This document shows positions 8,654-38,880 of a DNA stretch of 39,234 nt, one piece after another. A program made the translations under genes and the position numbers. How positions within the stretch are numbered: the stretch's first letter is position 1; every line of letters begins with the position of its first letter. The stretch covers positions 1 to 39,234 of the forward strand of contig JAFUYX010000049.1 of the NCBI GenBank assembly GCA_017476885.1, in the 5' to 3' direction. The notes beneath the pieces are model-generated. The model had not been told where the DNA came from and did not search any database. It saw only the letters and a program-made list of their open reading frames with translations. This stretch comes from Bacilli bacterium (lineage in GTDB: Bacteria; Bacillota_I; Bacilli_A; RF39; UBA660).

Positions 8654-8684
8654 AAAAAATGTGTAATTTACATTACACATTTTT
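8654..8684 (-). terminator. Terminator of the glucosaminidase-like gene
   Basis: AAAAATGTGTAAT/ATTACACATTTTT forms a stem of at least 9 bp with a 4-nt loop and a U-run on the minus strand. It overlaps the stop codon. Confidence 0.8.
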
Positions 8685-21753: not shown

Positions 21754-21780
21754 AAAAAAAAGAAGATCATAAATCTTCTT
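21754..21780 (-). terminator. Terminator of the VirD4-like operon
   Basis: AAGAAGAT/ATCTTCTT forms an 8-bp stem with a 5-nt loop and T-run on the minus strand. It reaches into the stop codon. Confidence 0.85.
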
Positions 21781-23932
21781 AAGAAAAGAAATCATCAAAG
21801 AATTCATCATCAGTAATAGTATTATCATTCATCACGACGGAATCTTTATCGATATGAATCTTTGGCTTTTCCTCTTCCACAACAACCTCTGGAATAGTAC
21901 TTTTTTCTTCAATAACCGTGTTTTCCTCTTTCTCTTTTTCTAACTTAGGCAATTCCATTTTTTCTTTGACCTCTTGCTGCTTTCTCTCGCGTTCTTCTTC
22001 CTCGTCAAGTTCTTTTAATTTCTTATCGATATCTGCAATCATCTGATCAATTTCATCACTAGAAAGACTAGAGATTGGTTTCTCTAAAGAAGGCCTATCC
22101 ATATTTGAAGAAGATGGTCTAGGTGAAATAGGAGGACCCATAAAAGGATTCATTCCCATTCCTCCCATAAACGGATTAAAAGAAGGAGTCATTTCACCAG
22201 GACCAGAATCTTCCATCATTTGTTTTCTTTTCGCTTCAGAAACAAAAGTTTTTAAATCAAAATAATGCAAAGTTCCTTTCTCTCTTTTAGGAAAATCAAA
22301 ATCTTTTCTTTCAATTCCCCAGTCCATTTTCATATCGGGAAATAATTTAGTTTTAAATGGATTCATTCGAAGCCTTCTAATAATCACTTCTCCCATTTTC
22401 ATTTTTTGTAAATCAGTCACAGTTACTAAAGGAGTCGAAGCAGTTTTATCTTTATCTTTACTTTTGACTTCTCCACACATTTTACTAATTTCTTCTAATG
22501 CTGCAATCTCAGTACTAATAAGATAAATCATATTACCACAGTTTCCTTTTAAAGTCTCAGCAATTTCTTTCCCATACACATCATTTAACTGGGCAAAGTT
22601 TTGAATAATAAAAGTAAATCTTATATCTCTTGAACGAGCAGCAGACACCATAGAATCAACATCTTGTAATGCCGGCATGTTCGCAAACTCATCTAATATA
22701 AAGTTGGTACGATATTTTAATTTCCCACCCCGTTCTTGGGCTACATCAATTAAAACTTCATAACATTGTTTTAAGAAAATTGTTAACAAACTATGATAGG
22801 TTGTTTTTTCATCATGAATAATTAAAAATACAGCCGTTTTCTTCTCTCCAATACTGGTCATATCAAAGTCGCTATAAGAAAGCATCTCAGCTAGGTTTTC
22901 TTGAGTTGCAAATTTCTGCATTTTACTTCGAAAAGTAGATTGAATACCTCCTTTAGTTTCTCCAGGAGCATTAATCGTTGCTGAAGCAAATACATATTCA
23001 CTCGTATTCTCACCCTTCATATTAAAGTATTCGTTGATATATCTAGAAGCCCCAAATCTCTGGTCTCCCACACTATCCATTAAGAAAATAGAACTAATAT
23101 TAACTTCTTCTTCTTTTCCATCTTCAAATAATCCAAGAGCAAGAGCACTAAAATAATCCGCGGCAGTGGACTCCCAGAACGCAGAATCTTTATTCTTAGG
23201 ATCGACTAAAATATTATTACCAATATCTTTTAATAATTCAATAGCTTTATCTTTATTTCCTTCTTTATAATAACGATAAGGCATAGCAAGTGGATTCCAT
23301 GAATTTCCACGATCAGGATTACGGAAATTTAAAACAATGATATTATAATCTTGATTTTTTAAATAATCACCACAGTATTTGTATAACTCACCTTTCGGGT
23401 CATTAATAATCATCGATTCCCCTTTTTTAGCAAGAGTATTTACAAGAGGTTTTACAACTGACTCGGATTTACCTGAACCAGTAGATCCAATTACTAAAGT
23501 ATGATAATCACTATTATCCACCCAAAGTTCTTTACCATTATTTATTAAAGGAACTCCAGCCCCTTCTACTTTTTGATCACTAGCAAGAATATGAACGACT
23601 CCTCTATCACTTTTCATCTCTTTATCTTTAGCCCATCTGGAATATCCTTTTTCATCTTTTTCACCAATATTTAAAAACTTATCTCCACTTTTATCTTTTT
23701 CAAAAATATAAGAAGATACACTTGAAAAGATAATAGCAATAGCTACACCAAACATAAATAAAGTCAATAAAAGATACTTTCCGCCAAACGCTGGAAAAGG
23801 ATTTAATCCAAAGAATGTACCATCATTGGCAAAAGATGAAAAGTTTAGTACCGCAATAGCACATAAGTATAATAAAAAAATACAAAATATCACAAAAATC
23901 ACAAAATCTTTTGAAGACACACGAAATTTCAT
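21779..23932 (-). CDS. VirD4/TraG-type coupling ATPase
   Basis: This membrane ATPase resembles the coupling proteins that feed substrates into type IV secretion systems. Two N-terminal helices (about 11-33 and 53-75) anchor a large cytoplasmic part. Walker A is GSTGSGKSES (about 151-160) and Walker B is FILDEFAN (about 413-420); DPKGELY, SAARSRDIRFTFIIQNFAQL and KGNCGNMIYL also fit the family. The last 150 residues are low complexity: Met/Pro/Gly-rich, then a charged coiled coil, then an acidic tail. ATG at 23932 (about 717 residues) follows AGAGGG. No relaxase, VirB4 or oriT is seen; its neighbours are a wall hydrolase and Tad pilus genes, so a role in conjugation is not supported here. Confidence 0.9.
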   Translation of the reverse strand: MKFRVSSKDFVIFVIFCIFLLYLCAIAVLNFSSFANDGTFFGLNPFPAFGGKYLLLTLFMFGVAIAIIFSSVSSYIFEKDKSGDKFLNIGEKDEKGYSRWAKDKEMKSDRGVVHILASDQKVEGAGVPLINNGKELWVDNSDYHTLVIGSTGSGKSESVVKPLVNTLAKKGESMIINDPKGELYKYCGDYLKNQDYNIIVLNFRNPDRGNSWNPLAMPYRYYKEGNKDKAIELLKDIGNNILVDPKNKDSAFWESTAADYFSALALGLFEDGKEEEVNISSIFLMDSVGDQRFGASRYINEYFNMKGENTSEYVFASATINAPGETKGGIQSTFRSKMQKFATQENLAEMLSYSDFDMTSIGEKKTAVFLIIHDEKTTYHSLLTIFLKQCYEVLIDVAQERGGKLKYRTNFILDEFANMPALQDVDSMVSAARSRDIRFTFIIQNFAQLNDVYGKEIAETLKGNCGNMIYLISTEIAALEEISKMCGEVKSKDKDKTASTPLVTVTDLQKMKMGEVIIRRLRMNPFKTKLFPDMKMDWGIERKDFDFPKREKGTLHYFDLKTFVSEAKRKQMMEDSGPGEMTPSFNPFMGGMGMNPFMGPPISPRPSSSNMDRPSLEKPISSLSSDEIDQMIADIDKKLKELDEEEERERKQQEVKEKMELPKLEKEKEENTVIEEKSTIPEVVVEEEKPKIHIDKDSVVMNDNTITDDEFFDDFFS

Positions 23933-23984
23933 AGACACTTCCCTCTCTAATAAGTATTATACAATAGATTCCACAAATTCTAAA

Positions 23985-24740
23985 CTATTTTTTTCGATTT
24001 TTAAAAAGAATAAGAATAGTAAGAACAACAAAAAATATTCCAAATGCAATAAGAAGAATCATAACTTTATGTTCATTTGCAAATTCAACAATTTGATTCT
24101 CTTGAGCAGGATTCTCTTCAATATTAGATTGAAAATCACTTAAATCAACAGGATTAGTATTAAAAACAAAAGAAATATACTTACTATTTTGATTATCCTT
24201 TGTAAAATACCAATAATAATGATTTCCTTTTACTTCATCTGCATTTGAAGAAATAACATTATAATCAGTTTTAACATCAATGGTTAAATCTTCAAGCAAA
24301 GAATACTTCTTATATGCTTTACAACCAGTACTCGTATTAATTCTATAAACAGTATCATTTTTCTGAACTGATATTTCATCAAAACATTCTTTAATCATTC
24401 TCGAGCGATAAATATTATAATAATCAAACTGATATGACGAAGTAAAACCCTCAAATTCACTATTCTTATAAGGCGCTATCTTATAATATTCTACCCCTTC
24501 ATTTTTTTCGCTACCAATTTCAACACCATCATTTTCATCAAAAAAAACAGGGACATATGATTGAGTATAAGAATTTAATATACGATTTAAATCCACATTT
24601 TGATACACCTCTGAAGAATTTTCTTTCGTATATACATGATTTACCTCTTCTACATTTTCATCTAAAGTTAATTCATAATGAACACTACAACCACATGTAA
24701 AAAATAACAAACAGATTACTAAAAAGAATATCCTTTTCAT
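23985..24740 (-). CDS. Lipoprotein-like protein with C-terminal membrane helix
   Basis: I do not recognise a named function. The 251-residue protein has an N-terminal signal sequence ending TCGC, a plausible but imperfect lipobox with Cys18, a beta-rich extracytoplasmic domain of about 200 residues with two further cysteines, a membrane helix at about 226-247 and a short basic tail (FKNRKK). A lipid anchor plus C-terminal helix recalls the LppM family layout, but that is only a topological resemblance. It lies between the wall hydrolase (15-nt gap) and the VirD4-like gene, so it is probably a membrane part of the same machine. Confidence 0.7.
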   Translation of the reverse strand: MKRIFFLVICLLFFTCGCSVHYELTLDENVEEVNHVYTKENSSEVYQNVDLNRILNSYTQSYVPVFFDENDGVEIGSEKNEGVEYYKIAPYKNSEFEGFTSSYQFDYYNIYRSRMIKECFDEISVQKNDTVYRINTSTGCKAYKKYSLLEDLTIDVKTDYNVISSNADEVKGNHYYWYFTKDNQNSKYISFVFNTNPVDLSDFQSNIEENPAQENQIVEFANEHKVMILLIAFGIFFVVLTILILFKNRKK

Positions 24741-24755: not shown

Positions 24756-26942
24756 TTATAAATGACATTTTGAAGTATCTGATAGAATAGATAAATCTAA
24801 ATAGTCATAAGGGTCAACTAAATGATTACTAGAATCATAAATTGTAAAATGCAAGTGAGGTCCAGTAGCAGAACCTGTCATACCCACTTCCCCTATTTTT
24901 TCACCTTGTGAAACTTCTTGATCTTTAGAAACAATAATAGAATTATTAAGCATATGCATATAAACGGTTTTAGTTCCATCTTCATGACGTATTTTTACGT
25001 AATTTCCCATTGAACTATGATTAAATCCAACTTCAAAGACAGTACCGGCTTTGGAAGCATAAATATCTGTACCAGAAGCAACTCCTAAATCAAGGCCAGA
25101 ATGATCATGAACTATTCCTGTAATAGGATGAACTCTTGTTCCAAAAGGAGAAGTACAATGAAACTCAGAATTAGATGGCAAAGGAAGAGCAAATCCATCT
25201 TTTCCAACACTTGCACATTGAGCTTGCCTTTCCATGACTCCTTCTGAATTATAATTATCATAATCACTCGCATCACGATGATCATAGAACTTCCCTTGAT
25301 CGGTATAATCTCCTGTTACAAATAAAGCAAACTCTGCTTTCCTACGCTTCATAAGTCCTTCCAAAACGCTGCCATTAGATTTACGACAAGTTTTCCATTC
25401 ATTCCAAAGTCCTTCCAATCCACCAGTTGAATATGCAGCAAGAACTTTAGATGCCCATTCAGAGCCACAGTTATAATTTAAAGAAGTAATTGCGTCTTTT
25501 TGAAACTGAGTAAGAGTAAGACCATACTTTAAAGCAGCCACATCAACACTGGCAGCATAATCCTTTTCAACAGAATTACTTTTTAAAGCATCAATAACTT
25601 CAATTGGAACACAATCTCCAGGCTCTAAATCATACTGCCCTTTATTATTCACACGAAAATAGTTACCCCAACCATTTTGATCAATCAATTCCTTAGAATA
25701 GGTAGTATTAACAACATGTTCAGTCACACCATAACCGATAGTAAATCTTGCATTATCTTTCAGTTTCTTTGCATAATACCCCGTATTATTACTACAAAGT
25801 CCCTCGTGACCTTCCCAACCATTTAAGAATGTTTCAAAATTAGCATTAGAAGATGATGTATTACAATAAGAAGATTGACTTCCCGATTCATAGGCTAACG
25901 TAGTTCCCTCATCCGTATTATTTTTATCATTTAAGGTTTTAATATAGATATCTTCTCCATAATAAGTAGTGAGTATCTGTAAAAAATTAAGTCCTAAATC
26001 GTGCCAATAGTAATATGCACCATATAAGTTAAACCCTTGCTCTTCTTCCTGATGCAAGTACTCTTTCTTATAAATAATTTCGGTGTCAGTAGAAGTTGTT
26101 CCATCTTCATTTTGAGTTTCATGCTCAATTTCCTCTTCAAAATAAATCCAACACTGAGGATCCTCATCGTCAAAAGGTTCAGAAGATTCAATAATTCCAC
26201 TAGACTTATTGCATACACACTCATTATATACCCGATTTTTAACATATTCATTCGAAAAAGAATTAGGAATGAACAAATTATTATGAAAAAGAACATGTAC
26301 TGGTTCCTCTTCATGAATCTTACTCCAACAAAAACTAGAAGCATGCGTAGAAATGAGTTCATCATTAATATTTACGATAACTAAATTTTTTGCCTTATCG
26401 AGTCCTTTTTCTATCTCTTGATCAGTTTCATAACTAGCAAATAAGTCTTTATCATCATGATAAGTCACAGAATAATTATTAGTTAGTGCCTCATTTCGAA
26501 GTGCAATCGCTAAAGCCCAGTAAACATGATAATCAAATCGTGCTTCATTTTCTGCTTCAATACTTTTGATACCTTGAGAATAAGCATACACAGCCTTAGT
26601 AATATACTCTTCTAAATCCATCTGAGTTGTAGTTTCCTCTTCTTCTCCAAATTTTCGATAATGAATCGTTACTTTACGAGAAAGTAACTCTTTTCCATTC
26701 TTATAATACGTGTAGTCATGAACATCGGAACCTTCCATTACTACACTAATCAAAATTAAAAAGAATAAAACCACTAGTACAATCCCTATAATTAATATCT
26801 TTTTCTTCAAAAGAATTTCTAAGGCCTTTTTACTTGCTCTACCACTGGCATTAATATCCCCCTTAAAAGATTCTAAAGTAATATCTTTAGAAGAAGGCTC
26901 TGTAGTAGAATTATCAATCTCTTCATAATCTTGATTATCCAT
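24756..26942 (-). CDS. Trimodular wall hydrolase: SpoIID-like + GH24 lysozyme + M23 peptidase
   Basis: The protein has about 728 residues. After a 40-residue cytoplasmic part and one membrane helix (about 50-70) come three extracytoplasmic modules. The first (about 85-335) is SpoIID/LytB-like: MDLEEYITKAVYAY, ALAIALRNEAL, and the ending NLYGAYYYWHDLG...ILTTYYG. The second (about 365-545) is a phage-type GH24 lysozyme: EGHEGLC with the probable catalytic Glu, TIGYGVT, SLNYNCG and KRRKAEFALF. The third (about 580-710) is an M23 LytM peptidase with zinc ligands in HSGLDLG and HLHF. ATG at 26942 has AAGGCGGTGA upstream. It probably opens peptidoglycan for the secretion machine encoded around it. 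Confidence 0.92.
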   Translation of the reverse strand: MDNQDYEEIDNSTTEPSSKDITLESFKGDINASGRASKKALEILLKKKILIIGIVLVVLFFLILISVVMEGSDVHDYTYYKNGKELLSRKVTIHYRKFGEEEETTTQMDLEEYITKAVYAYSQGIKSIEAENEARFDYHVYWALAIALRNEALTNNYSVTYHDDKDLFASYETDQEIEKGLDKAKNLVIVNINDELISTHASSFCWSKIHEEEPVHVLFHNNLFIPNSFSNEYVKNRVYNECVCNKSSGIIESSEPFDDEDPQCWIYFEEEIEHETQNEDGTTSTDTEIIYKKEYLHQEEEQGFNLYGAYYYWHDLGLNFLQILTTYYGEDIYIKTLNDKNNTDEGTTLAYESGSQSSYCNTSSSNANFETFLNGWEGHEGLCSNNTGYYAKKLKDNARFTIGYGVTEHVVNTTYSKELIDQNGWGNYFRVNNKGQYDLEPGDCVPIEVIDALKSNSVEKDYAASVDVAALKYGLTLTQFQKDAITSLNYNCGSEWASKVLAAYSTGGLEGLWNEWKTCRKSNGSVLEGLMKRRKAEFALFVTGDYTDQGKFYDHRDASDYDNYNSEGVMERQAQCASVGKDGFALPLPSNSEFHCTSPFGTRVHPITGIVHDHSGLDLGVASGTDIYASKAGTVFEVGFNHSSMGNYVKIRHEDGTKTVYMHMLNNSIIVSKDQEVSQGEKIGEVGMTGSATGPHLHFTIYDSSNHLVDPYDYLDLSILSDTSKCHL

Positions 26943-26972
26943 ACTATTCACCGCCTTCTTTAATTCATACAT

Positions 26973-27009: not shown

Positions 27010-27033
27010 TAAAAAAAGCAGGCAATGCCTACT
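27010..27033 (-). terminator. Terminator at the end of the pilin/cpaE operon
   Basis: On the minus strand AGTAGGC/GCCTGCT forms a 7-bp stem (one G-U pair) with a 3-nt loop, then seven T. It covers the cpaE-like stop codon. Confidence 0.82.
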
Positions 27034-28099
27034 TAAAAATATTAAACAAACTACCGCCCTTAGCCGAATCATCAACATCAAGTTTAGAAAAACCAAGTTT
27101 AATTAATAAATCATTTAGAACTTTATTATTATCTAGTTTATCATCCAAATATGGAATATTATAATAGATTTTACTACGAGATTCATATTCAAAATCAGAA
27201 ACATCCGTTTCATTTAAAACACTACGATTTAACAATATTTTCTCCCCTTTAAGATTTTCAAAAGCCCTAGGATTCTTTCGAATCAATTTATTTAACTTAA
27301 TTAATCCAGGTTCAATCAAATATAGAACTTCAGTACATAAGTTCTTAGAACCCTGTTCGTTCAAATCCACTAAAATAACATCCACATCATAATGACTAGT
27401 AATCATATCTTGTAATTCAGCATGATTCACCTTTTTTAAGGACTTATCATTAAAATATACAAAATCCTCACCATCAACTTCAATTGCCAAAACTTTATAA
27501 GCCTTCTCTAATTGTTTTTTTAACAAATAAGTTAAAGTCGTACTTCCAGCATGTTCTGTTACATTCTTGATCCCAATAACTCTAACATTTCGAGCTTCAT
27601 TAGAAGAAATTTGAAATGATTCGTCTTTAACTTCCTCTTTTTTCTTTTTTTTCTCCTTTTCTTTAATTCTTTCTTTTTCAGAACTTGAACTTGAATCGCT
27701 CTCATCTTCATCAAGCATATTTAATTGATGATATTGAGCCACATCTTTATACGTATTTGGATTATCAATCAAAAATTGAATTGCATCAATATTACGAGTA
27801 ACATTATAAATTCCCATAGAAACAAGTTGTGAAAGATATCTTGGGCTATTGACCACCTCAGAATCATCAAGCAATAAAATCACTTTACTCATATCCATAT
27901 TCACTGATAATTCTTGAATCTTTGTAATATCTTGATATCCTTTAATCGCTGTAATATCAATAATCATTTTATTATAGAAAAAATTGGAAAACTGCATAAT
28001 AATATCTTCCGGAGTAAACTCTCCTTGAATACTCTTAATGAAATCTACATCTAAATTGACTAACAACGTAGCATATTTATTAACAATTTTAACATTCAT
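27029..28099 (-). CDS. CpaE/TadZ-like protein with degraded P-loop
   Basis: Proteins of this type localise Tad pilus machinery. Residues 1-130 look like an atypical receiver domain, residues about 135-165 are a Ser/Glu/Lys linker, and the rest is a MinD/ParA-like domain. Where CpaE has its Walker A loop, this protein has NVTEHAGSTTL: the GSTT part remains but both lysines of a ParA loop are missing. VDVILVDLNEQ looks like the Walker B strand. ATG at 28099 (about 356 residues) follows AAGGAGG. It lies 13 nt after the last pilin-like gene. The assignment rests on fold pattern and context. Confidence 0.72.
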   Translation of the reverse strand: MNVKIVNKYATLLVNLDVDFIKSIQGEFTPEDIIMQFSNFFYNKMIIDITAIKGYQDITKIQELSVNMDMSKVILLLDDSEVVNSPRYLSQLVSMGIYNVTRNIDAIQFLIDNPNTYKDVAQYHQLNMLDEDESDSSSSSEKERIKEKEKKKKKEEVKDESFQISSNEARNVRVIGIKNVTEHAGSTTLTYLLKKQLEKAYKVLAIEVDGEDFVYFNDKSLKKVNHAELQDMITSHYDVDVILVDLNEQGSKNLCTEVLYLIEPGLIKLNKLIRKNPRAFENLKGEKILLNRSVLNETDVSDFEYESRSKIYYNIPYLDDKLDNNKVLNDLLIKLGFSKLDVDDSAKGGSLFNIFK

Positions 28100-28112
28100 A
28101 TAAAAATCCTCC

Positions 28113-28589
28113 TTAACTTGCAAATGGTATATCTCCATCAATCGAATTTGTAATATCTACTGTAACACCTTCTGCTTCAAAGGTATACAAATGCCCAATC
28201 ACAGGCAAATCAAATCGAAAGAAAATCCTTACTCGATATTTTGCTCTATTTAATTTCGTCCCCGTTGCAGTAGGCAACTTTGAAACACAATAATAATACT
28301 TTTGCCCAGAAGTAGCATTTTTTAAAACATTACTTTTCAAATCTTGACTTCCCATTTCCCCAGAATAACAACTATTCATCGTAGTATATCCACTTGAAAG
28401 CAAATAATTATTAATGATTGAAACAGATTTTTTACTAAAACCTTCATACTTTTCCACAATACTTACAACATCATTTTTTATTTTAAAAGCTTTTGTATAA
28501 TTCATTGTTAAAGCCAGAAAAGCAACAAAAATAAGCATAAAAATAATGACCAACTGATAAACCCAAGTAGCACCTACCGTCTCTCTCAT
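28113..28589 (-). CDS. TadE-like pseudopilin 2
   Basis: This 158-residue protein has a six-residue leader METV-type start (MRETVG) directly followed by a membrane helix (WVYQLVIIFMLIFVAFLAL). A soluble domain follows with three cysteines and a C-terminal beta-rich stretch (YRVRIFFRFDLPVIGHLYTFEAEG). It is a paralogue of the upstream gene product; both end with a FxxDLPxxxxxxxF pattern. By analogy it is a minor pilin of the Tad system. AAAGGAG precedes the ATG. Confidence 0.72.
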   Translation of the reverse strand: MRETVGATWVYQLVIIFMLIFVAFLALTMNYTKAFKIKNDVVSIVEKYEGFSKKSVSIINNYLLSSGYTTMNSCYSGEMGSQDLKSNVLKNATSGQKYYYCVSKLPTATGTKLNRAKYRVRIFFRFDLPVIGHLYTFEAEGVTVDITNSIDGDIPFAS

Positions 28590-28605: not shown

Positions 28606-29109
28606 CTAAGAAACTGCAAACGTTTTAGTATCTCCTGTAATTTTAAAATTAAATACATCATGGAAAAAAGGTAAATCTAACTGATAAAAAACAACGATAC
28701 GATAATAAAACATATTAGGAAGTTCAGTGTATTTATTGTCTAAACACCCATTTTTATTATCAACATAAACTGGTGCAACACAAAATACAGGACTATTTTT
28801 GTTATCTTCCTTTCCTTCACGATTATAACAACGATATCTACCATTGTTATTATTATTACTTGTACAACCAACTTTAATATCTGAAGGTTTAACACCAGAA
28901 GTCCTATATGCATTTGATTTCATATACTCTACAATATCAGGCATAGAAGCATTCAAATCACCATTATTGGATTGAATCGTTTCTAAAATAAAATTCTTTA
29001 CATTAAATGCCTTAGAACGATTAATAGACAAGCACATAAAACCTGTAAACAAAAGTATAAAAACTATGACAATTTGAAACAACCATGTTCCTCCTATCGA
29101 TTCTCTCAT
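28606..29109 (-). CDS. TadE-like pseudopilin 1
   Basis: This 167-residue paralogue of the next gene starts MRESIG followed by the helix TWLFQIVIVFILLFTGFMCL. The soluble part has several cysteines and the same ending pattern (YRIVVFYQLDLPFFHDVFNF). The Asn-rich stretch NNNNNG lies mid-protein. The start has ATAGGAGG. It is interpreted as a minor pilin because of the short Gly-ended leader, the helix and its place after two smaller pilins. Confidence 0.72.
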   Translation of the reverse strand: MRESIGGTWLFQIVIVFILLFTGFMCLSINRSKAFNVKNFILETIQSNNGDLNASMPDIVEYMKSNAYRTSGVKPSDIKVGCTSNNNNNGRYRCYNREGKEDNKNSPVFCVAPVYVDNKNGCLDNKYTELPNMFYYRIVVFYQLDLPFFHDVFNFKITGDTKTFAVS

Positions 29110-29121: not shown

Positions 29122-29379
29122 TTAACCTTTCCAAGTGCATTCAAATTCACTACCAGCTTTTTGTTTAGTTTTAGAGTCAATGACATAACAATCCGTACAA
29201 ACTCCTGATGTTTCCGGATTTCCTTTTTTACAAGGACAAATTGCTTTACTACAAGAAGAAGTTTTATTCATATTATCCTGAATCATTGGCCAAAACGTAA
29301 AAAAGAAAAAAGATACTAGTATCCCTATCATAACTACAACAATAACCGTTACATTTAGCTCACCAGTAGCTTCTTTCAT
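29122..29379 (-). CDS. Flp-like prepilin 2, Cys-rich
   Basis: This 85-residue protein begins MKEATG, followed by ELNVTVIVVVMIGILVSFFFFTFWP, a class-III-like prepilin layout with the hydrophobic segment right after the leader. The exposed part of about 50 residues holds six cysteines. It is a paralogue of the preceding gene product. The inner string NPETS is not a sorting signal because no hydrophobic tail follows. Confidence 0.75.
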   Translation of the reverse strand: MKEATGELNVTVIVVVMIGILVSFFFFTFWPMIQDNMNKTSSCSKAICPCKKGNPETSGVCTDCYVIDSKTKQKAGSEFECTWKG

Positions 29380-29398: not shown

Positions 29399-29692
29399 CT
29401 ATTTAACATTACAATTTGCTTTTTTTATTTCAACTGCTCCAGAACCATCGCCTTTATCAGCAGTATACTCACATGTATACTTACCACCATTAGCCTGTCC
29501 ACATTTAATATAACCAGGTTTAGAGCGATTAGTTTCAGCAGATGTATAGTTTTGACCATTAGCACAAACAGTATTTGCTGAAATACTATCTTTGATTCCA
29601 GGCCAGATAAATGCGTAGAAGAACGCACCTACTGCTACAATTGCAACAACTGTAACAACAGTCATATTTAATTCACCTGTTGCTTCTTTCAT
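29399..29692 (-). CDS. Flp-like prepilin 1, probable major pilin
   Basis: This 97-residue protein has the MKEATG leader and the helix segment ELNMTVVTVVAIVAVGAFF, then a soluble part with four cysteines. It is the first gene after a near-perfect promoter and has a strong GGAGG site, so it is the best candidate for the abundant subunit. A peptidase cutting after Gly6 would yield a mature pilin starting with Glu; no such peptidase is encoded in the window. Confidence 0.77.
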   Translation of the reverse strand: MKEATGELNMTVVTVVAIVAVGAFFYAFIWPGIKDSISANTVCANGQNYTSAETNRSKPGYIKCGQANGGKYTCEYTADKGDGSGAVEIKKANCNVK

Positions 29693-29763: not shown

Positions 29764-30552
29764 TTACATTCCCATTAACATGAGTACTGATAAAACAAGT
29801 AAAACCATAACTCCTAAACCAGTAGTAATAAGCATTTGAGTTGTTTTACCTTCCATTTTTTCTAAACGATGTTTATATTTAATCTCTCTTGCTTTTTGAG
29901 TTAAATTAGAGATTGTTCTTGAAAACGCAAGTAATTGTTCTTGTTTATGTTCCTGACTTCCAAGAGATAAACGATATAAAAGCCTCATCATACGCATAGA
30001 ATCACGAACTGGATACATCTTTGCAAAATTCATATATGGAGTGATAGTATCATCTCCATCATTAATTTGGTTAATCATCTCCTGTAGTCCTTCCCTAAAT
30101 ATCGGTGGAGCATCATTAATAGACCTACCAAGTGCCACTGGAACAGTATAATGTTGAATTAAAATTTCCAAACTTTTCAAATAATGAGGGAGCATTGAAT
30201 CGATCTCAGTCAAATGTGCTTTATAATATTTTTTAATATTTGAATAATCCATCTTAAACACTAAAAAGCCAACAATTAAACTAGCAAGAAAAGAAATATA
30301 AGACAAATTTGATACAAAGAAAGCTAATAAAATAACAATTGTAAGAAGCCCATTCTTTACTCGTTTATTAAACAAGAAATCAGGATTAGCACCATCGCCA
30401 TATTTTGCCTTAACATAAAAATCCCAATCACTTTCCTTAAATCTTCGAAATAACACCTCATTATCAGAAACAAACTTTGTCGCACTAATACGACCAGTAT
30501 AATTTAACATAAATAGAAGTAAAAGCGCTAAAACAAATATTTCCCAATACAT
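29764..30552 (-). CDS. tadC: TadC-like inner-membrane assembly protein
   Basis: This is a type II secretion F domain protein of 262 residues. An N-terminal helix, two central helices (about 68-100), a cytoplasmic helical F domain with LPHYLKSLEILIQHYTVPVALG, and a C-terminal helix (TGLGVMVLLVLSVLMLM) match TadC. With TadB it forms the membrane platform that the TadA ATPase drives. It overlaps tadB by 1 bp (TAATG). Confidence 0.85.
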   Translation of the reverse strand: MYWEIFVLALLLLFMLNYTGRISATKFVSDNEVLFRRFKESDWDFYVKAKYGDGANPDFLFNKRVKNGLLTIVILLAFFVSNLSYISFLASLIVGFLVFKMDYSNIKKYYKAHLTEIDSMLPHYLKSLEILIQHYTVPVALGRSINDAPPIFREGLQEMINQINDGDDTITPYMNFAKMYPVRDSMRMMRLLYRLSLGSQEHKQEQLLAFSRTISNLTQKAREIKYKHRLEKMEGKTTQMLITTGLGVMVLLVLSVLMLMGM

Positions 30553-31448
30553 TATTCCACCCCCACATCTTCATAGTAGAATTTCTCTCCGCCAATTAAG
30601 AAAAACGCATTAAATACGATGATTGCGTGTAAAATAAGTTGTACATACCACATTTCCAAAAGTTCAATATAAGAATCTGTGCCAAGCAAAAACTGCATAA
30701 CCATAACAAGTAAAAATAATGCCATCCCAAAAGTCAAAAATCTTTTATGAAACTCATTTCGATCAATTTGATCTCGATAAACACCTTCTACCAAGGCATC
30801 AATATCCATAGACATATTTTCTAGTGCTTGTCCAGAATCCTTAGCACCTTCTTTAGTGATTTGTAAAAATAATTGATGCATATTTTTAACCATGTAAAAT
30901 GGATATTTTCGATTAAAAAATTCAATGGATTCATCAATCGTACCATTCTGATAAGACATATCAATCATAGTAGAAATATCAGTTAAAATAGGATCTTCAA
31001 TAATCCCAGAATCACGAACACCTTCCAAAGATTTTACAAAACTCTGTGTGGTATTAAACTCCATAATAACATTGGTTGTATAAGTTTGAATCTGTTCAAA
31101 AATAAATTCACTATAAACTTTTTGACAACGAAGATAGGCCAAATAAGGAATAAAAGCAACAGCAATAGCAGCATAAATCAAAGATATCAATAGATTATAA
31201 AAATAAAGATAAGTAATTCCACCCGCAACAACAGCAAACAAAATTACTTGAGCAATATATTGCTTTACAGTATATTCCTGACCTAATTCCTTTGTTTTTT
31301 TTCGAACTTCTTTAAAACTATAAGGAGCATACTTATCATAAGCACCCGACACTTGATTTATAAAGAATCGATAGACATTCTCACCATTATTAAACCAATA
31401 AGAAAGTCCAAAAATAGCAATAACCAATAAAATGATTAACTCAATCAT
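30552..31448 (-). CDS. tadB: TadB-like inner-membrane assembly protein
   Basis: This is an F-domain protein of 298 residues with an N-terminal helix, a helix pair near 70-105, the cytoplasmic F domain (IQTYTTNVIMEFNTTQSFVKSLEGV and GAKDSGQALENMSMDID) and C-terminal helices. It is the partner of TadC in the Tad platform. AAAGGGG precedes the ATG, 21 nt after tadA. Confidence 0.85.
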   Translation of the reverse strand: MIELIILLVIAIFGLSYWFNNGENVYRFFINQVSGAYDKYAPYSFKEVRKKTKELGQEYTVKQYIAQVILFAVVAGGITYLYFYNLLISLIYAAIAVAFIPYLAYLRCQKVYSEFIFEQIQTYTTNVIMEFNTTQSFVKSLEGVRDSGIIEDPILTDISTMIDMSYQNGTIDESIEFFNRKYPFYMVKNMHQLFLQITKEGAKDSGQALENMSMDIDALVEGVYRDQIDRNEFHKRFLTFGMALFLLVMVMQFLLGTDSYIELLEMWYVQLILHAIIVFNAFFLIGGEKFYYEDVGVE

Positions 31449-31469: not shown

Positions 31470-32636
31470 TTATAACGTTTCAATTACAGGTGTATTATTT
31501 ACCTGAGATGAAGTTATTGACGCAACAGGTTGAGACTGAACTTCTACATTAGAATTAGTAGAAACACTCGACTCTTTTTTACCAGGATTAAAAATATCTT
31601 CAGGAAGAGTTACTCCTCCAATACTTAAATAATCCCTTAAATTCTTTGTTGGTTGATTCATCGTCATTTGACCTGTTAAATTCTTTTTAAAAATAGTATT
31701 TACTTGAGCTTTATTATTTTCATCAACATAGAATTCACATATTTCCATAATTTCACGTTGAAATCTTCCGAGTTCTTTACTCATATAACCTTTAACATAA
31801 ATTCCGATTTGAACATAACGATGTATTGTAGTTAAAAACTGTTCAACATCAATATTACTTTCAATCAAAGCAAACATACGCATTGGAATCAAACTAGCTT
31901 TATCAGAGTGAATCGTAGATAAAATATGGTGTCCAGAAGAAATCGAGTTACGAACAGCCATAACCGCTTCAGCACTACGAACCTCAGAAAGTAATATCCA
32001 AATTGGGTTTTGTCTCATACATGCCACTAAAACATCAGAATAACTAGCAATATTATTTGTTTTTAAAGCAACAATATCACGATGTGGAAAAATACGATCT
32101 AAGTGTAACTCAAGTGTATCTTCGATAGTAATAATCTTTTCGTTTTCTTTAATATGCGACGCCAGATACTTAACCAACTCTGTTTTACCAGAACCAGTCT
32201 CTCCACTAACAATAATATTTGCATGCCCTTCAATACATTGAATCAAAAAATCATGCAAAGACTCTGTAATATATTTTTCATTAATTAACTTTTCTTTATT
32301 TAATCGTATTTTAGCAGGAGTCTTACGAATAAGACAACTAATTCCATTCGTTGAAATAGAATCGTGAATAAAATTCATACGTAATTCTGCGCTTTCTGCA
32401 TCGAGCATTGGATGTGCCATATTAAAAGTTTTTCCCATAACATTAGCACATTGAAACGCCAATTTTTCCATTAAAGGATTATTAATCTGAGGGCGATTAA
32501 CTTGATAAACACCTTTATCTAAAGTTTTTAACCATACTTGGCCACCATTACTATAAGAAATATCAGTAACATTATCATCTTGTAAAAATTCCTCTAACGG
32601 ACCAAAATCTAATTGTGAAAAAATAGCATCATTCAC
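31470..32636 (-). CDS. tadA: TadA/CpaF-type secretion ATPase
   Basis: This hexameric ATPase powers pilus assembly. In 388 residues it shows Walker A SGETGSGKTEL (about 144-154), an Asp box TIEDTLELHL (170-179), a Walker B region WILLSEVRSAEA (213-224; the usual VGEVRGxEA has become LSEVRSAEA) and a His box GHHILSTIHSD. The N-terminal domain (DNVTDISYSNGGQVWL) is also typical. The last 40 residues are a Ser/Val/Gln-rich tail. The start is GTG at 32636 after AAAGGGGATGAT; no in-frame ATG is near. Confidence 0.93.
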   Translation of the reverse strand: MNDAIFSQLDFGPLEEFLQDDNVTDISYSNGGQVWLKTLDKGVYQVNRPQINNPLMEKLAFQCANVMGKTFNMAHPMLDAESAELRMNFIHDSISTNGISCLIRKTPAKIRLNKEKLINEKYITESLHDFLIQCIEGHANIIVSGETGSGKTELVKYLASHIKENEKIITIEDTLELHLDRIFPHRDIVALKTNNIASYSDVLVACMRQNPIWILLSEVRSAEAVMAVRNSISSGHHILSTIHSDKASLIPMRMFALIESNIDVEQFLTTIHRYVQIGIYVKGYMSKELGRFQREIMEICEFYVDENNKAQVNTIFKKNLTGQMTMNQPTKNLRDYLSIGGVTLPEDIFNPGKKESSVSTNSNVEVQSQPVASITSSQVNNTPVIETL

Positions 32637-32654: not shown

Positions 32655-33464
32655 TTATTCTCCAGTATCAGAAACGGCTGAATAATAGTTTTCTTCTCCT
32701 GGAAGAATGACTACATGTGGTAATATATACTCTTCTACAATATATGTACCTTCAACACGAGTAGATCCTGGATTAGTAGTGTAATTATTATTATGTGGAA
32801 CAGGAATCAATTCACCAAATTGCTCAGCCCTTACTAGCAAAGCATACAAATTATCTGGAACAGCAAATAAAAGTACTGCAGGAACTCCATCTCTAGAATT
32901 TTCGATAGAAACTCCTTCTCCATCACGAACATCTAACACACGAATAGCTTGGACTAAATTTCCATAGATAACTTTGTCATTTTCAGAATCAGTCCCTTGA
33001 AAATATAAATCAATATAGTTTCCTCTTTTGATTTGACCACCATACGTAGATAAAATATTAACAGGTAAAGAAAATGCTGTATATCCATCTTGAATATCAC
33101 TTAAAACAAAATCTGGTGAATAAGAAGGTTCTGTTAAATCTTCTTGATAAAACAAACCATGTTCAGGTATTTTATTACCATAAGTCACTTCTTTACCAAT
33201 AATTAAAGTGACATCCTGAATAAGATTATCAGCACTAGCAGCAATATCATTATTGATTTGAATATATTCAATATCTTCTGCTGTAATAACATGCCGTGCA
33301 GGCAGTGCAACTTTTGCACTTGGAACAGTAACAGGACTAACTTGTGCACGAACTCGAGAATTATATCCAATCCATAACACCGTAAAACCAGCAATCAAAC
33401 ATAAAATTGCCACAGTAGTACGATTACTAATAAATCTTTGTAATTTCACTATCATTGTCTGCAT
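32655..33464 (-). CDS. cpaB: CpaB/RcpC-like SAF-domain protein 2
   Basis: A membrane helix (about 18-38) is followed by a SAF domain (VPSAKVALPARHVITAEDIEYIQIN) and a beta-rich RcpC region (YIDLYFQGTD, VIYGNLVQAIRVLDV, LLFAVPDNLYALL). CpaB proteins belong to the Tad envelope complex. The frame opens at 33542 but that part overlaps the upstream gene; ATG at 33464 or 33473 is more likely, though no site is strong. It is a tandem paralogue of the preceding gene product. Confidence 0.83.
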   Translation of the reverse strand: MQTMIVKLQRFISNRTTVAILCLIAGFTVLWIGYNSRVRAQVSPVTVPSAKVALPARHVITAEDIEYIQINNDIAASADNLIQDVTLIIGKEVTYGNKIPEHGLFYQEDLTEPSYSPDFVLSDIQDGYTAFSLPVNILSTYGGQIKRGNYIDLYFQGTDSENDKVIYGNLVQAIRVLDVRDGEGVSIENSRDGVPAVLLFAVPDNLYALLVRAEQFGELIPVPHNNNYTTNPGSTRVEGTYIVEEYILPHVVILPGEENYYSAVSDTGE

Positions 33465-33465
33465 A

Positions 33466-34278
33466 TTAATCATTCTCACTTTCAACATTTCCAGAAGATA
33501 CATTACTAGGAACATATGCAGCCTTCGATAATATAAAATCATCTAAATAAGAATTTGCAATTTTGGTTGCTTCTGGATGCTCAGTAAAACTACGATTTCG
33601 TGGAACTGGGACAATTCTTCCAACCTTTAGGGCTGTATCAATTTTAAGTCGCATATCAGCAGGCACCCCAAATAAAAGTTGAGATGGTTCCCTAGCCTCT
33701 GAACCTGATTCAAATACAGAAGATCCCATATCATCTTGTACGTCTAATACTTTAATGCTACTAATGTATTTACCATAAATAAAGTTTCCTGAACTATCTT
33801 CTCCCTCAAACCATAAATCAATGTAATTCCCAGGATAAATTGCATTACCAAATGTAGAATTCAAATCCACACTTAAATAAATAGGGGTATATCCATTTTC
33901 AAGATTTCCAATAATATCAGAAGCCATAGCATTAGTTTTAGAATCAGCAACCGAATCTTCAAAAAAGAAACTATTTTTTTGAATGGTATTACCATATGCA
34001 ACCTCTTGACCAATTATAAGACCTGAATCTTTAATAATTCCTTCCATGTTGTTTAAAACACCACCAGCAACTTCTATAAAACTAACATCATCACTAGTAA
34101 TAACATGTCTAGATGGTAAAGTAGCCGTAGCATAAGGAATCATAATTGGTTCTGTAGCAAGCGAAACAATATGATTATAAACAAAATAAAGAGCAAAAAT
34201 ACCTATAAGTACAATAAGTATCGTTACGGTATTTTTGTTCTTTGTAATTTCTTTTATTTTACCTAATATATTTCCCAT
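33466..34278 (-). CDS. cpaB: CpaB/RcpC-like SAF-domain protein 1
   Basis: This 270-residue paralogue has a helix at about 18-40, a SAF domain (IPYATATLPSRHVITSDDVSFIEV) and the RcpC region (YIDLWFEGED, FIYGKYISSIKVLDV, LLFGVPADMRLKI). TTGGAGGAATAAAT precedes the ATG. The two copies are clearly related along their length but diverged, which argues for distinct jobs rather than a recent duplication. Confidence 0.83.
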   Translation of the reverse strand: MGNILGKIKEITKNKNTVTILIVLIGIFALYFVYNHIVSLATEPIMIPYATATLPSRHVITSDDVSFIEVAGGVLNNMEGIIKDSGLIIGQEVAYGNTIQKNSFFFEDSVADSKTNAMASDIIGNLENGYTPIYLSVDLNSTFGNAIYPGNYIDLWFEGEDSSGNFIYGKYISSIKVLDVQDDMGSSVFESGSEAREPSQLLFGVPADMRLKIDTALKVGRIVPVPRNRSFTEHPEATKIANSYLDDFILSKAAYVPSNVSSGNVESEND

Positions 34279-34576: not shown

Positions 34577-35062
34577 TTAACTAGATTTAGCAGCAGATTT
34601 AGAACCACTTCCTACTGCAGCAGTAGTAATTGAATTATCTTGCTTATCTGCAGTTAAAGCAGCACCATCAGTTTCTAAAATAGCATCAATTCGATTCGTA
34701 ATATCAAATGATGAATCACTAGCAGCAATATTATAAGTAGCACTTTTTGTTGTAACTTTAACACTAACTTTTGGAGGTGCCTCATAAAGTCCATAAAAAT
34801 CAACTTGATAATCACTTAAAGCGACATTTTCAGCAAACCTTCTTAAAAAATTTTCAACAAACATCTCTTTATTAATACGAAGTTCTCTACTTTGACGGTA
34901 ATATGCTAAATCTACAGCATCAACTAAAGATGCTTCAGTAACTTCTTTAATCAAATAATAATCTTGAGTACTCGTATTGGTTACATTAGAAACTAGTAAC
35001 ATAATTACAATTACAAAAACTCCTAATAGTATTAACCAATATCCCCAATAAGATTGATTCAT
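34577..35062 (-). CDS. Pilin-like small membrane protein
   Basis: This 161-residue protein starts MNQSYWG followed by the helix YWLILLGVFVIVIMLLVSNV, then a soluble domain (LVDAVDLAYYRQ, FVENFLRRFAENVAL, APPKVSVKV). From memory it resembles proteins grouped as DUF5411, but I cannot check this. The short Gly-ended leader before a helix is like that of the TadE-like proteins in the cluster, so it may be another minor pilin. It is unlike them in lacking cysteine. AAGGAGGGG precedes the ATG. It starts 14 nt after the giant gene. Confidence 0.7.
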   Translation of the reverse strand: MNQSYWGYWLILLGVFVIVIMLLVSNVTNTSTQDYYLIKEVTEASLVDAVDLAYYRQSRELRINKEMFVENFLRRFAENVALSDYQVDFYGLYEAPPKVSVKVTTKSATYNIAASDSSFDITNRIDAILETDGAALTADKQDNSITTAAVGSGSKSAAKSS

Positions 35063-35076: not shown

Positions 35077-38000
35077 TTATTTCCATGATGGACCTATAGC
35101 ATTTTCACGTGTAATACATTTATTATTAGCACAAGTCTTTTGTAAATCAGGATCAACACTAACCAAATCAGTAAACAAAATAAAGCGTTGATTCTTTTCA
35201 GGACGAATACTACTAATAGCAAATTTATGAGAAGAATCATTTTCAATAACATCTAAGAATGCACTATTACATTTAACACTATAGTCAATACCATTAATAC
35301 TCATATTAGAGCAATAAATAGCACTATTTTTTGGTGTAGTAGTATTATTCGACATATTTTCATATTTACTTGGAATCGTTGAATTTGCAAATGTTCCAAC
35401 CTCACCATTATAACCTTTAATATTCTTTAAATTCATGGCAGACAAAGTATAAGAATACTCAGGAGTTACATAACTTTCATCGCCACCTTGCAATTTTATA
35501 GAACCACGATTATATCCATTTTCAATAATCTTACGAGTTAGTGAACCTTTGTAATCATTAGTCCAGTTATAACCTTCATCAGAATTTTTAGAACGTTCAT
35601 TAGGGAACAAAGTACTTAAAGAAACAGGCCTGAAACTGTACGTAAAGTTTTCTCCATCAAAGATACAATCTCTACATGTGAATGTACAATTTCCATCTTC
35701 ACATTCTTCAAAATAACACTTTCCATCAGGATCACACTTAAATTTACAATGATCATCACAGTTCGTTAGATAATGACAAACATATCCAACTTGTTGTTGC
35801 ATCGTAGAAATACTACACTTTTTATACTCGCCACTATTAACTTTACGAGTATATTCCGTTAATACAGATTTAGTAGAACCAGTATTAATAATTCTTCCAA
35901 GTGAATTATCCTGATTTGATTGTCCAACTTTATTATAAGAAAGTACAAAAGGGAAGACACCCGTTTTAGTCAATAATGATACAGGAATAGAGTCCTTAGG
36001 TAAATTAGTATATAAGCAATCATTTCCATTACAAGCTGCACTCTTAAATTGTACTGTACCATATTGAGAACGAACAGATAAATCATTATTTGGTTCATAA
36101 TGAGCACTTTGAACCTTCGTCTTTCTAATCCAATTTGATTTACCAACTTGAATTACATTAGAAACACAGCTAGAATCATCACAATAAATAATATTTGTTC
36201 CCACTATCGCATTGGAAGAAGAATTTGCACTCCCACCACTGATACATTTATATGTAGAATCCGTATCACCAAAACAATATTCTTCAGTAGTCTGAATACC
36301 ATCATAATTTGCATCTAACAAAGTATTAAAATCCTTAATATAGTCTTCTTTGTAATTCATGTACACTTCTGGTCCATCAGAATTCCAATTAACCATTTTA
36401 TTATCCCAACCAGTAACATTTACAGAAGTATCATTTGGATTATTAACATTACCAGTACAACTATTATACAAGCGAATATTATTTTTAATGTCTTTCAAAT
36501 TATCTTCATAAGCTTTCTTATACTTATCAACATTTGGTTGAACCCTGCCCCTTACAACATCAGCTGAACCATCACGACAAGTTCCATCAGAACCACATGA
36601 GGAAGCATCAATAGCTTCTCCATCTGGACTAACGATGTTCTCAGATTGACTGGAAGAGCCAATAGAAATATGAGAAATTGTTCCATCAGCATTATAAATC
36701 GCAGTATAAGTAGAATAAGTATATGAAGGAACATAATAGATAGTAGCGCTACATGAAACATAAGAATCACAACCACAATCACCACCATCTTCAACTTTTG
36801 TTAAATTAATGTTCATATTAGGTGTAGTTTCAATAAAACGCGTCACAGCCGCTGACTCATCTATAGTCAAATTAGCAGTACCTACCGCAGCAGCTGCATC
36901 ATCATCGTCATCATCATCTTCTCCTCCACAAGGGTAAGATTCAGTTAAACCATCAGCAGATTCAGATTTACTAGTTATACTGTTTAATGCTGTTTTCCAA
37001 CGAACATACTCAGTATAATTTCTTAACATTTCGTCAGTTAATTCACGAATCTTATTCCTGAATTTTACAGTATCAATTCCTTTAGAAGGATCATCATGCC
37101 CACTAACATAACAATCTCTAGTTCCTTCGATACTAGCATCGATTGTAAAATAACTTCCACTATTGGTAGTACGTGCTGTAGGAACATTAAATTTATAAGA
37201 TTCTTTACACCAAACTTGGCAGTATGGATTGTCTCCAGATATTCCACTTGTTGATGTAGCATTATAAGAATTACCTGCCGCATCACTGCGATTAATAACA
37301 CAAGATTTAATTTGATCTTTTGGAGATTCGTTCTGACAAGAATATCTACCAGCAGACGTTTGAGAAATATCACTAATTACACCATTAACTTGAGAATCCA
37401 AATTATCAAAATTATTACATGTAGCAGGCATATACACATTTGGAGTACAATCTACACAATATTGATTATAATCTTGACACTCAGGATCACTTGGATTTTG
37501 ATTATCCTTACACTTATCTTCCCATTCATCACATTTCTGACAATCTTTTATATATTCTTCTTTACTACACTCTTTTCCGTCCCCAGCTCCTGGAGTAGAT
37601 TCTTTACAATAATATTTTCCATCTCCACTTTCACTTGGATTTTGACAAGAATGTTGACATTCTTTCTTAAACTCTTCCTCTGTACAAACTTCACCATTTT
37701 TACAATGAGGTTTTCCGCTATCATCTCTATAGCAAGTATTTTTCTTTTCACAAGTTCCAGGGCAAGTCACATCGGAACCAGCAGCCTTTTTAGCTTCTTC
37801 TAAAGTACTATAAGTTGTAGTAGTTTTATTCTTAGTAACTTTGTATAAACCAGTTGTAGTATCACAAATACAAGAAGGACCAGAAGTAATATGGATAGAA
37901 GGTCTGCCTGGACGACGAACAGAATTAGTAAACTCCTGTTCACTTACAGGACAAGAGCCATCCATAATAACAAGCATTCTTTGGATTCCAGAACGAGTAG

Positions 38001-38880
38001 GACTAACTAAGAACACTTGCATAGCAGCATCTTGAGGATCACAATATGCTGGAGTCACTTCAATACCATAATCAGTTCCAGTATATCCATTCAACTTTTC
38101 AACAGTCATATCAATTTGTACTCCAGCTGCACCATTATAAGCACCCGCAGAAGACATTGTACATTTAACATTAGTATTAGTACATTTAGCAGTAAAATTA
38201 TTATAATAAACTAAAGCAGGAACAGTACCATTCACAGAATTCAATACAAACGTAACCTTACTAGTATTTGTTCCAGTAGAAGTCTCAGTGTAACTAGCCG
38301 TTCCCCACTGAACGCCCCAAACAGAACCTTGGGATACCAATTCATCATAGGAAAGTGCAGAAGCATTCACAGCCTCTGTATAGATGCGTTTTGCTTCTGC
38401 AACTTCAGCATCAGAGTTGCTAAACTGATTTAAATCCGCATAATTAACCCCTTCAAAACTAACAGGATTTGATGCATAAGGAGAAGTGTTAATAATCCAT
38501 CGAAATAGTAATTCTTGAACTTTACGGCTACTTCCTTGGCTAGCTTTATATGCATAAGCAATCCTTTTATAAGTCGAAGAATTATAATCCTTACTCAAAT
38601 TAACAGTTAAATTATAATCTTGCCTAGTTTCTTTTAAACCAGTCCCCCATGGTCTACGAGGATCTGCACAATAAGTAGTATTAATTTCTTTACCATCTAT
38701 CACTGCCGTATAATAATTAATTGTTATACGCTTACCTTTTGACGTTAAGAAGGAATCAGCGTTATGATCACTAGCCCTTCTATAAACTTGAATCGATGCT
38801 GCTTTAGTAGATTGCATAAAAGCAATCATCATCAAAAACAGCAAAATAATTTCATAAAAAACTTTTCTTCCTTTTTTCAT
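35077..38880 (-). CDS. Giant Cys-rich secreted protein with possible thioester domain
   Basis: The protein has 1267 residues. A signal peptide (about 1-28) leads to a region resembling thioester domains of Gram-positive adhesins: Cys71 in TTYCADP and Gln122 in KVQELLFRW could form the internal bond. Residues about 337-488 are extremely Cys-rich and hold short modules ending EEEFKKEC and KEEYIKDC. A run of Asp then Ala lies near 660-675, and a second dense Cys cluster (CKFKCDPDGKCYFEECEDGNC) lies near 1060. The C-terminus has no sorting signal or helix, so the protein is released or held by partners. It overlaps the upstream gene by ATGA. Function as adhesin or pilus-tip protein is inference. 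Confidence 0.8.
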   Translation of the reverse strand: MKKGRKVFYEIILLFLMMIAFMQSTKAASIQVYRRASDHNADSFLTSKGKRITINYYTAVIDGKEINTTYCADPRRPWGTGLKETRQDYNLTVNLSKDYNSSTYKRIAYAYKASQGSSRKVQELLFRWIINTSPYASNPVSFEGVNYADLNQFSNSDAEVAEAKRIYTEAVNASALSYDELVSQGSVWGVQWGTASYTETSTGTNTSKVTFVLNSVNGTVPALVYYNNFTAKCTNTNVKCTMSSAGAYNGAAGVQIDMTVEKLNGYTGTDYGIEVTPAYCDPQDAAMQVFLVSPTRSGIQRMLVIMDGSCPVSEQEFTNSVRRPGRPSIHITSGPSCICDTTTGLYKVTKNKTTTTYSTLEEAKKAAGSDVTCPGTCEKKNTCYRDDSGKPHCKNGEVCTEEEFKKECQHSCQNPSESGDGKYYCKESTPGAGDGKECSKEEYIKDCQKCDEWEDKCKDNQNPSDPECQDYNQYCVDCTPNVYMPATCNNFDNLDSQVNGVISDISQTSAGRYSCQNESPKDQIKSCVINRSDAAGNSYNATSTSGISGDNPYCQVWCKESYKFNVPTARTTNSGSYFTIDASIEGTRDCYVSGHDDPSKGIDTVKFRNKIRELTDEMLRNYTEYVRWKTALNSITSKSESADGLTESYPCGGEDDDDDDDAAAAVGTANLTIDESAAVTRFIETTPNMNINLTKVEDGGDCGCDSYVSCSATIYYVPSYTYSTYTAIYNADGTISHISIGSSSQSENIVSPDGEAIDASSCGSDGTCRDGSADVVRGRVQPNVDKYKKAYEDNLKDIKNNIRLYNSCTGNVNNPNDTSVNVTGWDNKMVNWNSDGPEVYMNYKEDYIKDFNTLLDANYDGIQTTEEYCFGDTDSTYKCISGGSANSSSNAIVGTNIIYCDDSSCVSNVIQVGKSNWIRKTKVQSAHYEPNNDLSVRSQYGTVQFKSAACNGNDCLYTNLPKDSIPVSLLTKTGVFPFVLSYNKVGQSNQDNSLGRIINTGSTKSVLTEYTRKVNSGEYKKCSISTMQQQVGYVCHYLTNCDDHCKFKCDPDGKCYFEECEDGNCTFTCRDCIFDGENFTYSFRPVSLSTLFPNERSKNSDEGYNWTNDYKGSLTRKIIENGYNRGSIKLQGGDESYVTPEYSYTLSAMNLKNIKGYNGEVGTFANSTIPSKYENMSNNTTTPKNSAIYCSNMSINGIDYSVKCNSAFLDVIENDSSHKFAISSIRPEKNQRFILFTDLVSVDPDLQKTCANNKCITRENAIGPSWK
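36897..36921 (-). repeat. Asp-codon trinucleotide run inside the giant gene
   Basis: GAT/GAC triplets encode a run of seven Asp followed by Ala codons. Slippage here would change length in frame only. Confidence 0.7.
37417..37872 (-). repeat. Cys-bounded repeat modules in the giant protein
   Basis: Three or more degenerate modules of about 26-30 residues have the pattern aromatic/Tyr, Gly, then T/S-x-E-E-[F/Y]-x-K-x-C. A matching single module ends the ectodomain of the NPETG protein (YDKAC, about 158-182), 33 kb away. Confidence 0.6.

Follow-up and report, generated by a model that had tools for sequence, protein, structure and literature searches.

The hydrolase gene and its neighbors

The analyzed stretch of 39,234 nucleotides from a gut bacterium (the window) contains, on its minus strand, a 738-amino-acid open reading frame at 24756 to 26972 that encodes a membrane-anchored protein with SpoIID-fold, GH24, and M23 domains. 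The earlier note on this DNA had placed the upper end of the gene at 26942, which is Met11 of the frame. This start is probably right because the starts of relatives align there and a purine-rich sequence lies just before it, and the gene is thus given as 24756 to 26942. Hydropathy revealed a single strong hydrophobic segment, beginning at residue 59 of the 738-residue frame, and a transmembrane helix was placed at about residues 58 to 80 (26733 to 26801). Also on the minus strand are the SpoIID-fold domain (residues 85 to 366; 25875 to 26720), which is predicted to be catalytically dead, the GH24 phage-type lysozyme domain (25329 to 25835), and the M23 endopeptidase domain (24825 to 25106). 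The proposal that three wall-enzyme folds stand behind one membrane anchor was confirmed. VirB1-like hydrolases combine a membrane anchor with extracellular wall-hydrolase domains, a topology that the hydropathy of the window protein indicates.

Pfam recognized Phage_lysozyme (GH24; PF00959) at residues 398 to 547 (E = 1.1e-11) and Peptidase_M23 (PF01551) at residues 623 to 716 (E = 1.2e-27). Glu387 and Thr411, which we take to be the catalytic Glu and Thr of GH24, are kept in all four rows with this domain; the position of the Asp is uncertain, and its assignment to Asp406 is tentative. The metal site of M23 enzymes is marked by the motifs HxxxD and HxH, which appear in the window protein as HSGLD and HLHF (H624, D628, H673, H706, and H708). 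As far as can be judged from the sequence, the active-site residues of both domains look intact.

The neighboring genes on the minus strand have the appearance of a secretion system. Downstream of the hydrolase gene are a lipoprotein-like gene of 251 amino acids (23985 to 24740), which gene order shows to be kept in other genera, and a gene for a VirD4-like coupling protein of the CD1115 family (21779 to 23938; NF045973, E = 4.3e-86, above the cutoff). Upstream is a series of Tad-like genes, several of them labeled by gene order alone: a TadZ/CpaE-like gene (27029 to 28141), so labeled from its position, with no significant Pfam or NCBIfam match; two putative pseudopilin-like genes (28113 to 28589 and 28606 to 29109); two putative small pilin-like genes (29122 to 29379 and 29399 to 29692); and two membrane genes in what is presumably the TadC/TadB position (29764 to 30552 and 30552 to 31448). 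These are followed by a CpaF/TadA-like secretion ATPase gene (31470 to 32636; T2SSE, E = 1e-26; TadA family, E = 1.4e-29, and VirB11, E = 1.9e-34, both below the cutoff) and two CpaB/RcpC-like genes (32655 to 33542 and 33466 to 34278). The first of the latter pair matched PF16976 with an E value of 1.5e-8, the second with 0.012, and the first also matched TIGR03177 below the cutoff (E = 2.7e-13). Farther upstream are genes for a DUF5411 protein (34577 to 35062; E = 1.8e-54) and a large, co-oriented, Cys-rich, surface-type protein with no Pfam match (35077 to 38880). Elsewhere in the window are a separate small Glucosaminidase gene (8673 to 9350, minus strand; PF01832, E = 3e-8) and a gene for a sortase-domain protein (5454 to 7037, plus strand; E = 6.1e-13).

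SpoIID fold and active-site residues

The N-terminal domain had been described as SpoIID-like, and this description held for structure but not for sequence profiles. A model of residues 85 to 366, predicted from an alignment of 30 rows of relatives (alignment A1, from which the cut-off L041 was omitted), had a pLDDT of 89.6 and a pTM of 0.86. In a Foldseek search with this model the sole match under 0.001 was Bacillus anthracis SpoIID (4rwr; E = 8.6e-5). VIA-align superimposed the model on Clostridioides difficile SpoIID (5i1t) with a Z score of 13.9 and an rmsd of 3.3 over 163 aligned residues, on 4rwr with a Z score of 12.2, and on the spore transglycosylase SleC (9h68) with a Z score of 12.0; the remaining listed entries, which have unrelated folds, all scored 3.8 or less. 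The Pfam SpoIID profile (PF08486) did not match the window protein in searches up to an E value of 10, nor did a profile of the 30 relatives match PDB sequences up to that value. PF08486 matches to the relatives at L060 and L062 were below the cutoff (E = 0.023 and 0.026). The window protein qualifies as a SpoIID by fold but by neither profile, nor catalytic residue, nor motif. Two nearly invariant cysteines (columns C14 and C83 of A1) are both missing from its SpoIID-fold domain, a pattern resembling the paired loss of a disulfide.

To compare the active site, 30 genus rows were aligned with 20 from other genera and with 6 canonical SpoIIDs, of which 5 belong to the window's genus. The SpoIID family is defined by the motif GHGxGMSQ. 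This motif is present in the 6 canonical rows and missing in all 30 genus rows, in which GMSQ has been replaced by forms such as GYSV and GHG is gone. The column of the catalytic Glu, aligned through intact relatives, holds Glu in all six canonical SpoIIDs, including the five sporulation SpoIIDs of the genus. In the genus rows it holds Tyr wherever it can be read (29 of 29); L057 has a gap there at a contig edge. In the window protein this residue is Tyr131 (codon at 26580 to 26582, minus strand). Among the 20 rows from other genera, 17 have Glu, 2 have Asp, and 1 has Ala. Substitution of the catalytic Glu (E101A) inactivates C. difficile SpoIID in vitro and in vivo (excerpt of PMC6221140). 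The SpoIID domain of the window protein is probably no cutter, and the earlier suggestion of three wall-cutting activities did not survive this comparison.

It is unlikely that the protein is nevertheless a true triple cutter, in which the SpoIID-fold domain still cuts glycan via another residue, so that glycan is cleaved twice and peptide once. The intact fold and the invariance of the replacing Tyr, which may indicate a site under selection, are in keeping with such an enzyme, and an altered activity could involve the conserved Tyr. However, both SpoIID active-site motifs were lost together, and loss of the Glu alone abolishes activity in the C. difficile enzyme.

The Glu appears to have been lost once. 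In a tree of 37 VirD4 rows, the 12 rows with Glu were separated from the 25 rows lacking it at 98/95 support; the VirD4 trees take in only rows with VirD4 in their stretch (22 of 31 genus rows). All 17 Glu-bearing proteins from other genera matched Pfam SpoIID above the cutoff, and by our own profiles or Pfam 16 of them have no second glycosidase, the exception being L133, with a phage-tail lysozyme. The three Glu-less proteins from other genera all carry a GH73-like domain, and a GH24, GH73-like, or phage-tail lysozyme domain is present in all genus rows that extend to the C terminus. This distribution fits the gain of a second glycosidase before the Glu was lost, a link that carries no statistical weight with one loss on the tree. 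An extra glycosidase and loss of the Glu are not strictly tied, as L133 and a further Glu-bearing protein of the family, L226 (Glucosaminidase, GH73, above the cutoff), keep the Glu alongside a second glycosidase. In other genera the SpoIID domain with Glu is usually fused to a peptidase alone, and it was probably the part that cleaved glycan before further glycosidases were added.

A profile of the intact domain matched 44 of 392 genomes of the phylum at an E value of 1e-10. The best 30 loci were taken and eight longer frames were read as a sample. Six of the eight had no hydrolase by our own profiles, one in the family (L230) and five outside it (L228, L229, L235, L248, and L251), and L228 had LysM by Pfam. 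In L227 of the family, M23 precedes SpoIID, and the eighth frame is L226, with its GH73 domain. This sample, with five nonfamily frames, gave no support to the idea that fusions of SpoIID to hydrolases are widespread beyond the family.

Cassette exchange and secretion-system context

The window protein was matched somewhere in 46 of 58 genomes, and its N-terminal part, by row count, in 31 of 35 genomes of the genus, including the window's own. The C-terminal cassettes of the 31 genus rows were GH24 plus M23 in 4, GH73-like plus C39 in 10, GH73-like plus NlpC/CHAP in 3, GH73-like plus M23 plus phage-tail lysozyme in 9, and M23 plus phage-tail lysozyme in 2; the sequences of the other 3 (L036, L041, and L056) stop short of the cassette end. 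The Glu-less SpoIID domain thus carries five different cassettes in the genus, of which GH24 plus M23 is one. The GH73 label rests on structure, a domain model with a pLDDT of 90.0 that matched pneumococcal LytB (7pj4) with a Z score of 13.7, because the sequence support is weak: the best PDB sequence match of alignment A2 was LytB at an E value of 0.023. Foldseek with the GH73-like model gave no match under 0.001.

Cassettes are also exchanged as blocks. For example, L048 and L053 are 76% identical in the N-terminal part and have unrelated C termini, with 72% identity giving way to 15% near residue 360, a sharp cassette junction. L048 and L054 are 45% identical in the N-terminal part and 71% identical in the C terminus. 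Mapped on a VirD4 tree of 25 rows, the cassettes require at least 8 changes, the least possible being 4, and well-supported branches force 3 changes for GH24 plus M23. The earlier view of the triple set as unusual needs qualification: its GH24 plus M23 combination occurs in 4 of 31 genus rows, the others having different cutters, and a three-domain hydrolase of a Gram-positive type IV secretion system, PrgK, already exists (excerpt of PMC11323569). On whether the architecture is common in conjugative elements, no SpoIID relative was detected in 72,556 plasmid records queried with one intact domain. A search of viral contigs with the genus profile also found none.

In most stretches from other genera the homologue is followed by the lipoprotein gene and then VirD4. 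In these genera VirB4 and VirD4 flank the intact SpoIID-hydrolase, and the Tad-like genes are either kilobases away on the upstream side or outside the stretch read. At L119 the hydrolase is preceded by genes for a type IV secretion system pilin-like protein, a VirB6-like protein (Mbov_0396 family, E = 5.7e-11, below the cutoff), PrgI, and VirB4 (Mbov_0397 family, E = 1.6e-108, below the cutoff because the gene is split). At L134, VirB4, VirB6-like, and the PrgI position are likewise just upstream. The VirB4 of the window's genome, 76% identical to that of L119, is on another contig (contig 63). A VirB1-like hydrolase is encoded with VirB4, VirB6, and VirD4 and is required for transfer or for assembly of the channel; the window gene is beside VirD4, and its homologues in other genera are between VirB4 and VirD4. 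A SpoIID-like frame was within 1.5 kb of 13 of 30 VirB4 loci, an uncertain share, as several of the others are cut off and some have unrelated genes there.

VirB4 was present in 20 of 21 genomes of the genus and matched in 167 of 193 genomes of the family. PF03432, the sole relaxase family searched, was above the cutoff in 4 of the 21 and was not found in the window's own genome; in such fragmented metagenome assemblies absences are soft. On these counts of VirB4 and relaxases, a conjugative element was rejected as the description of the window locus. From the counts and the gene order described above, the locus is read as a core type IV secretion system of the chromosome, accompanied by a Tad-like operon, and the protein as its wall hydrolase. 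The earlier term "pilus/secretion operon" holds as to secretion, but the genes make up more than a pilus: a type IV secretion system and, in addition, a Tad-like operon. L170 of the genus has a separate, more distant VirB4 beside a plain M23 protein and looks like an ordinary element.

The surroundings of VirB4 and VirB6 had further features. Tandem genes upstream of VirB6 (L169:1262-2386, L169:2468-3553, and L134:2966-4219) have wall-enzyme-like N termini (VgrG3-like C-terminal domain, E = 2.4e-7; Peptidase_C39_2, E = 1.6e-9; and Amidase_3, E = 2.5e-12) and hydrophobic C-terminal tails. The tails resemble neighboring pilin-like genes, whose PF18895 matches are below the cutoff, and T4SS_pilin-like tails were also seen in L166:19041-19889 and L176:483-1487. 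These genes may encode hydrolases carried on pilin-like subunits. Proteins with collagen-like GPTGPTGP repeats are encoded near the VirB4 cluster (L169:8588-10621 and L176:14273-15064).

One alternative is that the protein serves the Tad pilus rather than a type IV secretion system, opening the wall for the pilus encoded upstream. In the window and at L045, L046, L047, L051, and L054 the hydrolase gene follows Tad-like genes with no other searched type IV secretion gene between them, and this order, together with the location of the genome's VirB4 cluster on another contig, speaks against the secretion-system reading and allows a pilus role. However, within the genus the gene stays beside VirD4, and in other genera it is the VirB4 and VirD4 genes that flank it, with the Tad-like genes at a distance. 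A hydrolase dedicated to the Tad pilus is therefore considered unlikely.

SpoIID, a lytic transglycosylase acting on glycan that SpoIIP has freed, is known for its role in engulfment, and a SpoIID domain with an M23 partner recalls SpoIID and SpoIIQ at the engulfment site. The small genomes contain sporulation genes: Spo0A was found in 177 of 193 genomes of the family, making it, like VirB4, nearly universal, and SpoIVA was found in 19 of 21 genomes of the genus. The survey coordinates included G000:C28:2340-2651 and G000:C85:3964-4674. The genomes are very small, about 1 Mb, and the family possibly consists of spore formers. However, 19 of the 21 genus genomes have a separate canonical SpoIID above the cutoff, and the window gene and its relatives stay with VirB4/VirD4, and a sporulation protein is accordingly a highly improbable identity for the window protein. 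No canonical SpoIID was found in the window's own genome (best E = 0.002), and the control sequences come from other genomes of the genus. The sole PF08486 match in the own genome is a 482-amino-acid frame at L043 (about 11800 to 12700, minus strand), whose C terminus resembles a peptidoglycan-binding region by eye and whose upstream gene has LysM-like repeats; it is perhaps a SleC-type germination enzyme.

The window protein probably occupies the VirB1 position, as wall hydrolase, in a Gram-positive type IV secretion system of the chromosome (VirB4, VirB6-like, PrgI, and VirD4) that is encoded with a Tad-like pilus operon, with the SpoIID domain as a noncutting mount and GH24 and M23 as the cutters. 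Just outside the membrane, the SpoIID-fold domain, its cutting presumably lost with the change of Glu to Tyr, would hold or read glycan and position the protein at the machine. Going by family and intact active-site residues, GH24 would cleave the glycan backbone and M23 the cross-links, and these cuts could make a hole for a channel or pilus. That an apparently dead fold is retained while cutters are swapped suggests that it is a mount reused in drilling through the wall. A broader scenario is speculative and, in our estimation, doubtful: the whole family would have recruited SpoIID, the glycan cutter of sporulation, for the wall-enzyme role in a core type IV secretion system that mostly lacks a relaxase. 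In one clade the active site, which in the window's genus has the invariant Tyr, would have been rebuilt to make a noncatalytic glycan reader, and glycosidase-peptidase warheads would be traded on it according to the wall chemistry of partners or prey.

Comparison with known systems

In the literature searched for SpoIID with type IV secretion systems, conjugation, VirB4, NlpC/M23, or Tad, no paper described SpoIID as a component of such a secretion system, and nothing relevant was found on RF39 together with these systems. The word SpoIID does not occur in the text of a review of type IV secretion (PMC12857230), and SpoIID-like domains have been noted in a few polyvalent proteins of phages and conjugative elements (excerpt of PMC5512222). 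The intact SpoIID copies in the wall-enzyme place of a type IV secretion system, and the clade in which the active site was lost, the domain kept, and the cutters became exchangeable, provide a graded series, from Glu with a peptidase, through Glu with a second glycosidase, to loss of the Glu. This series offers a way to study how hydrolase domains turn into regulators or mounts. The findings also suggest that a family with genomes of about 1 Mb has retained a secretion machine throughout.

The lactococcal proteins TraAd and TrsAd function in conjugation and have hydrolase folds; their N-terminal domains were proposed to bind substrate (excerpt of PMC11067333). Their folds differ from those of the window protein, and their adhesin role was demonstrated by clumping and mating. 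They provide a precedent, also covered in excerpts of PMC12857230, for a wall-binding adhesin that functions mainly in cell contact, as proposed for these two hydrolase-like proteins of conjugative plasmids, and a dead SpoIID domain could bind the glycan of another cell. However, the apparent integrity of the GH24 and M23 active sites is at odds with a protein that mainly adheres, and we consider an adhesin very unlikely.

In the reading as a secretion-system hydrolase, the window protein resembles TraG of pIP501 and Orf14 of Tn916, in which an anchored glycosidase and peptidase serve a type IV secretion system (excerpt of PMC12857230), but these have two domains of other families and no SpoIID mount. 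It shares its fold with sporulation SpoIID (TIGR02870/PF08486), and the LEEY..AV region aligns without gaps through intact relatives. It differs from sporulation SpoIID in lacking the catalytic Glu, GHGxGMSQ, and a profile match, in its fusion to GH24 and M23, and in being encoded with a secretion system.

A close parallel is PrgK of the pCF10 type IV secretion system, with three extracellular wall-hydrolase domains, in which two inactive domains, a degenerate LytM and a CHAP, damp an active muramidase (excerpt of PMC11323569). PrgK is a membrane-anchored, DELTA-class VirB1, for which a figure legend of the review gives CHAP, SLT, MUR, and LytM domains (excerpt of PMC12857230). Both proteins have three hydrolase domains, one of them degenerate and noncatalytic in PrgK and the SpoIID domain predicted to be dead in the window protein. 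PrgK is LytM-SLT-CHAP without SpoIID, whereas in the window protein the dead domain is the SpoIID fold and M23 looks intact. Three-domain type IV secretion hydrolases with degenerate domains were thus already known, and the SpoIID-fold case is a variant of them. PrgK is a single such case, whereas the relatives of the window protein let the change be traced on a tree.
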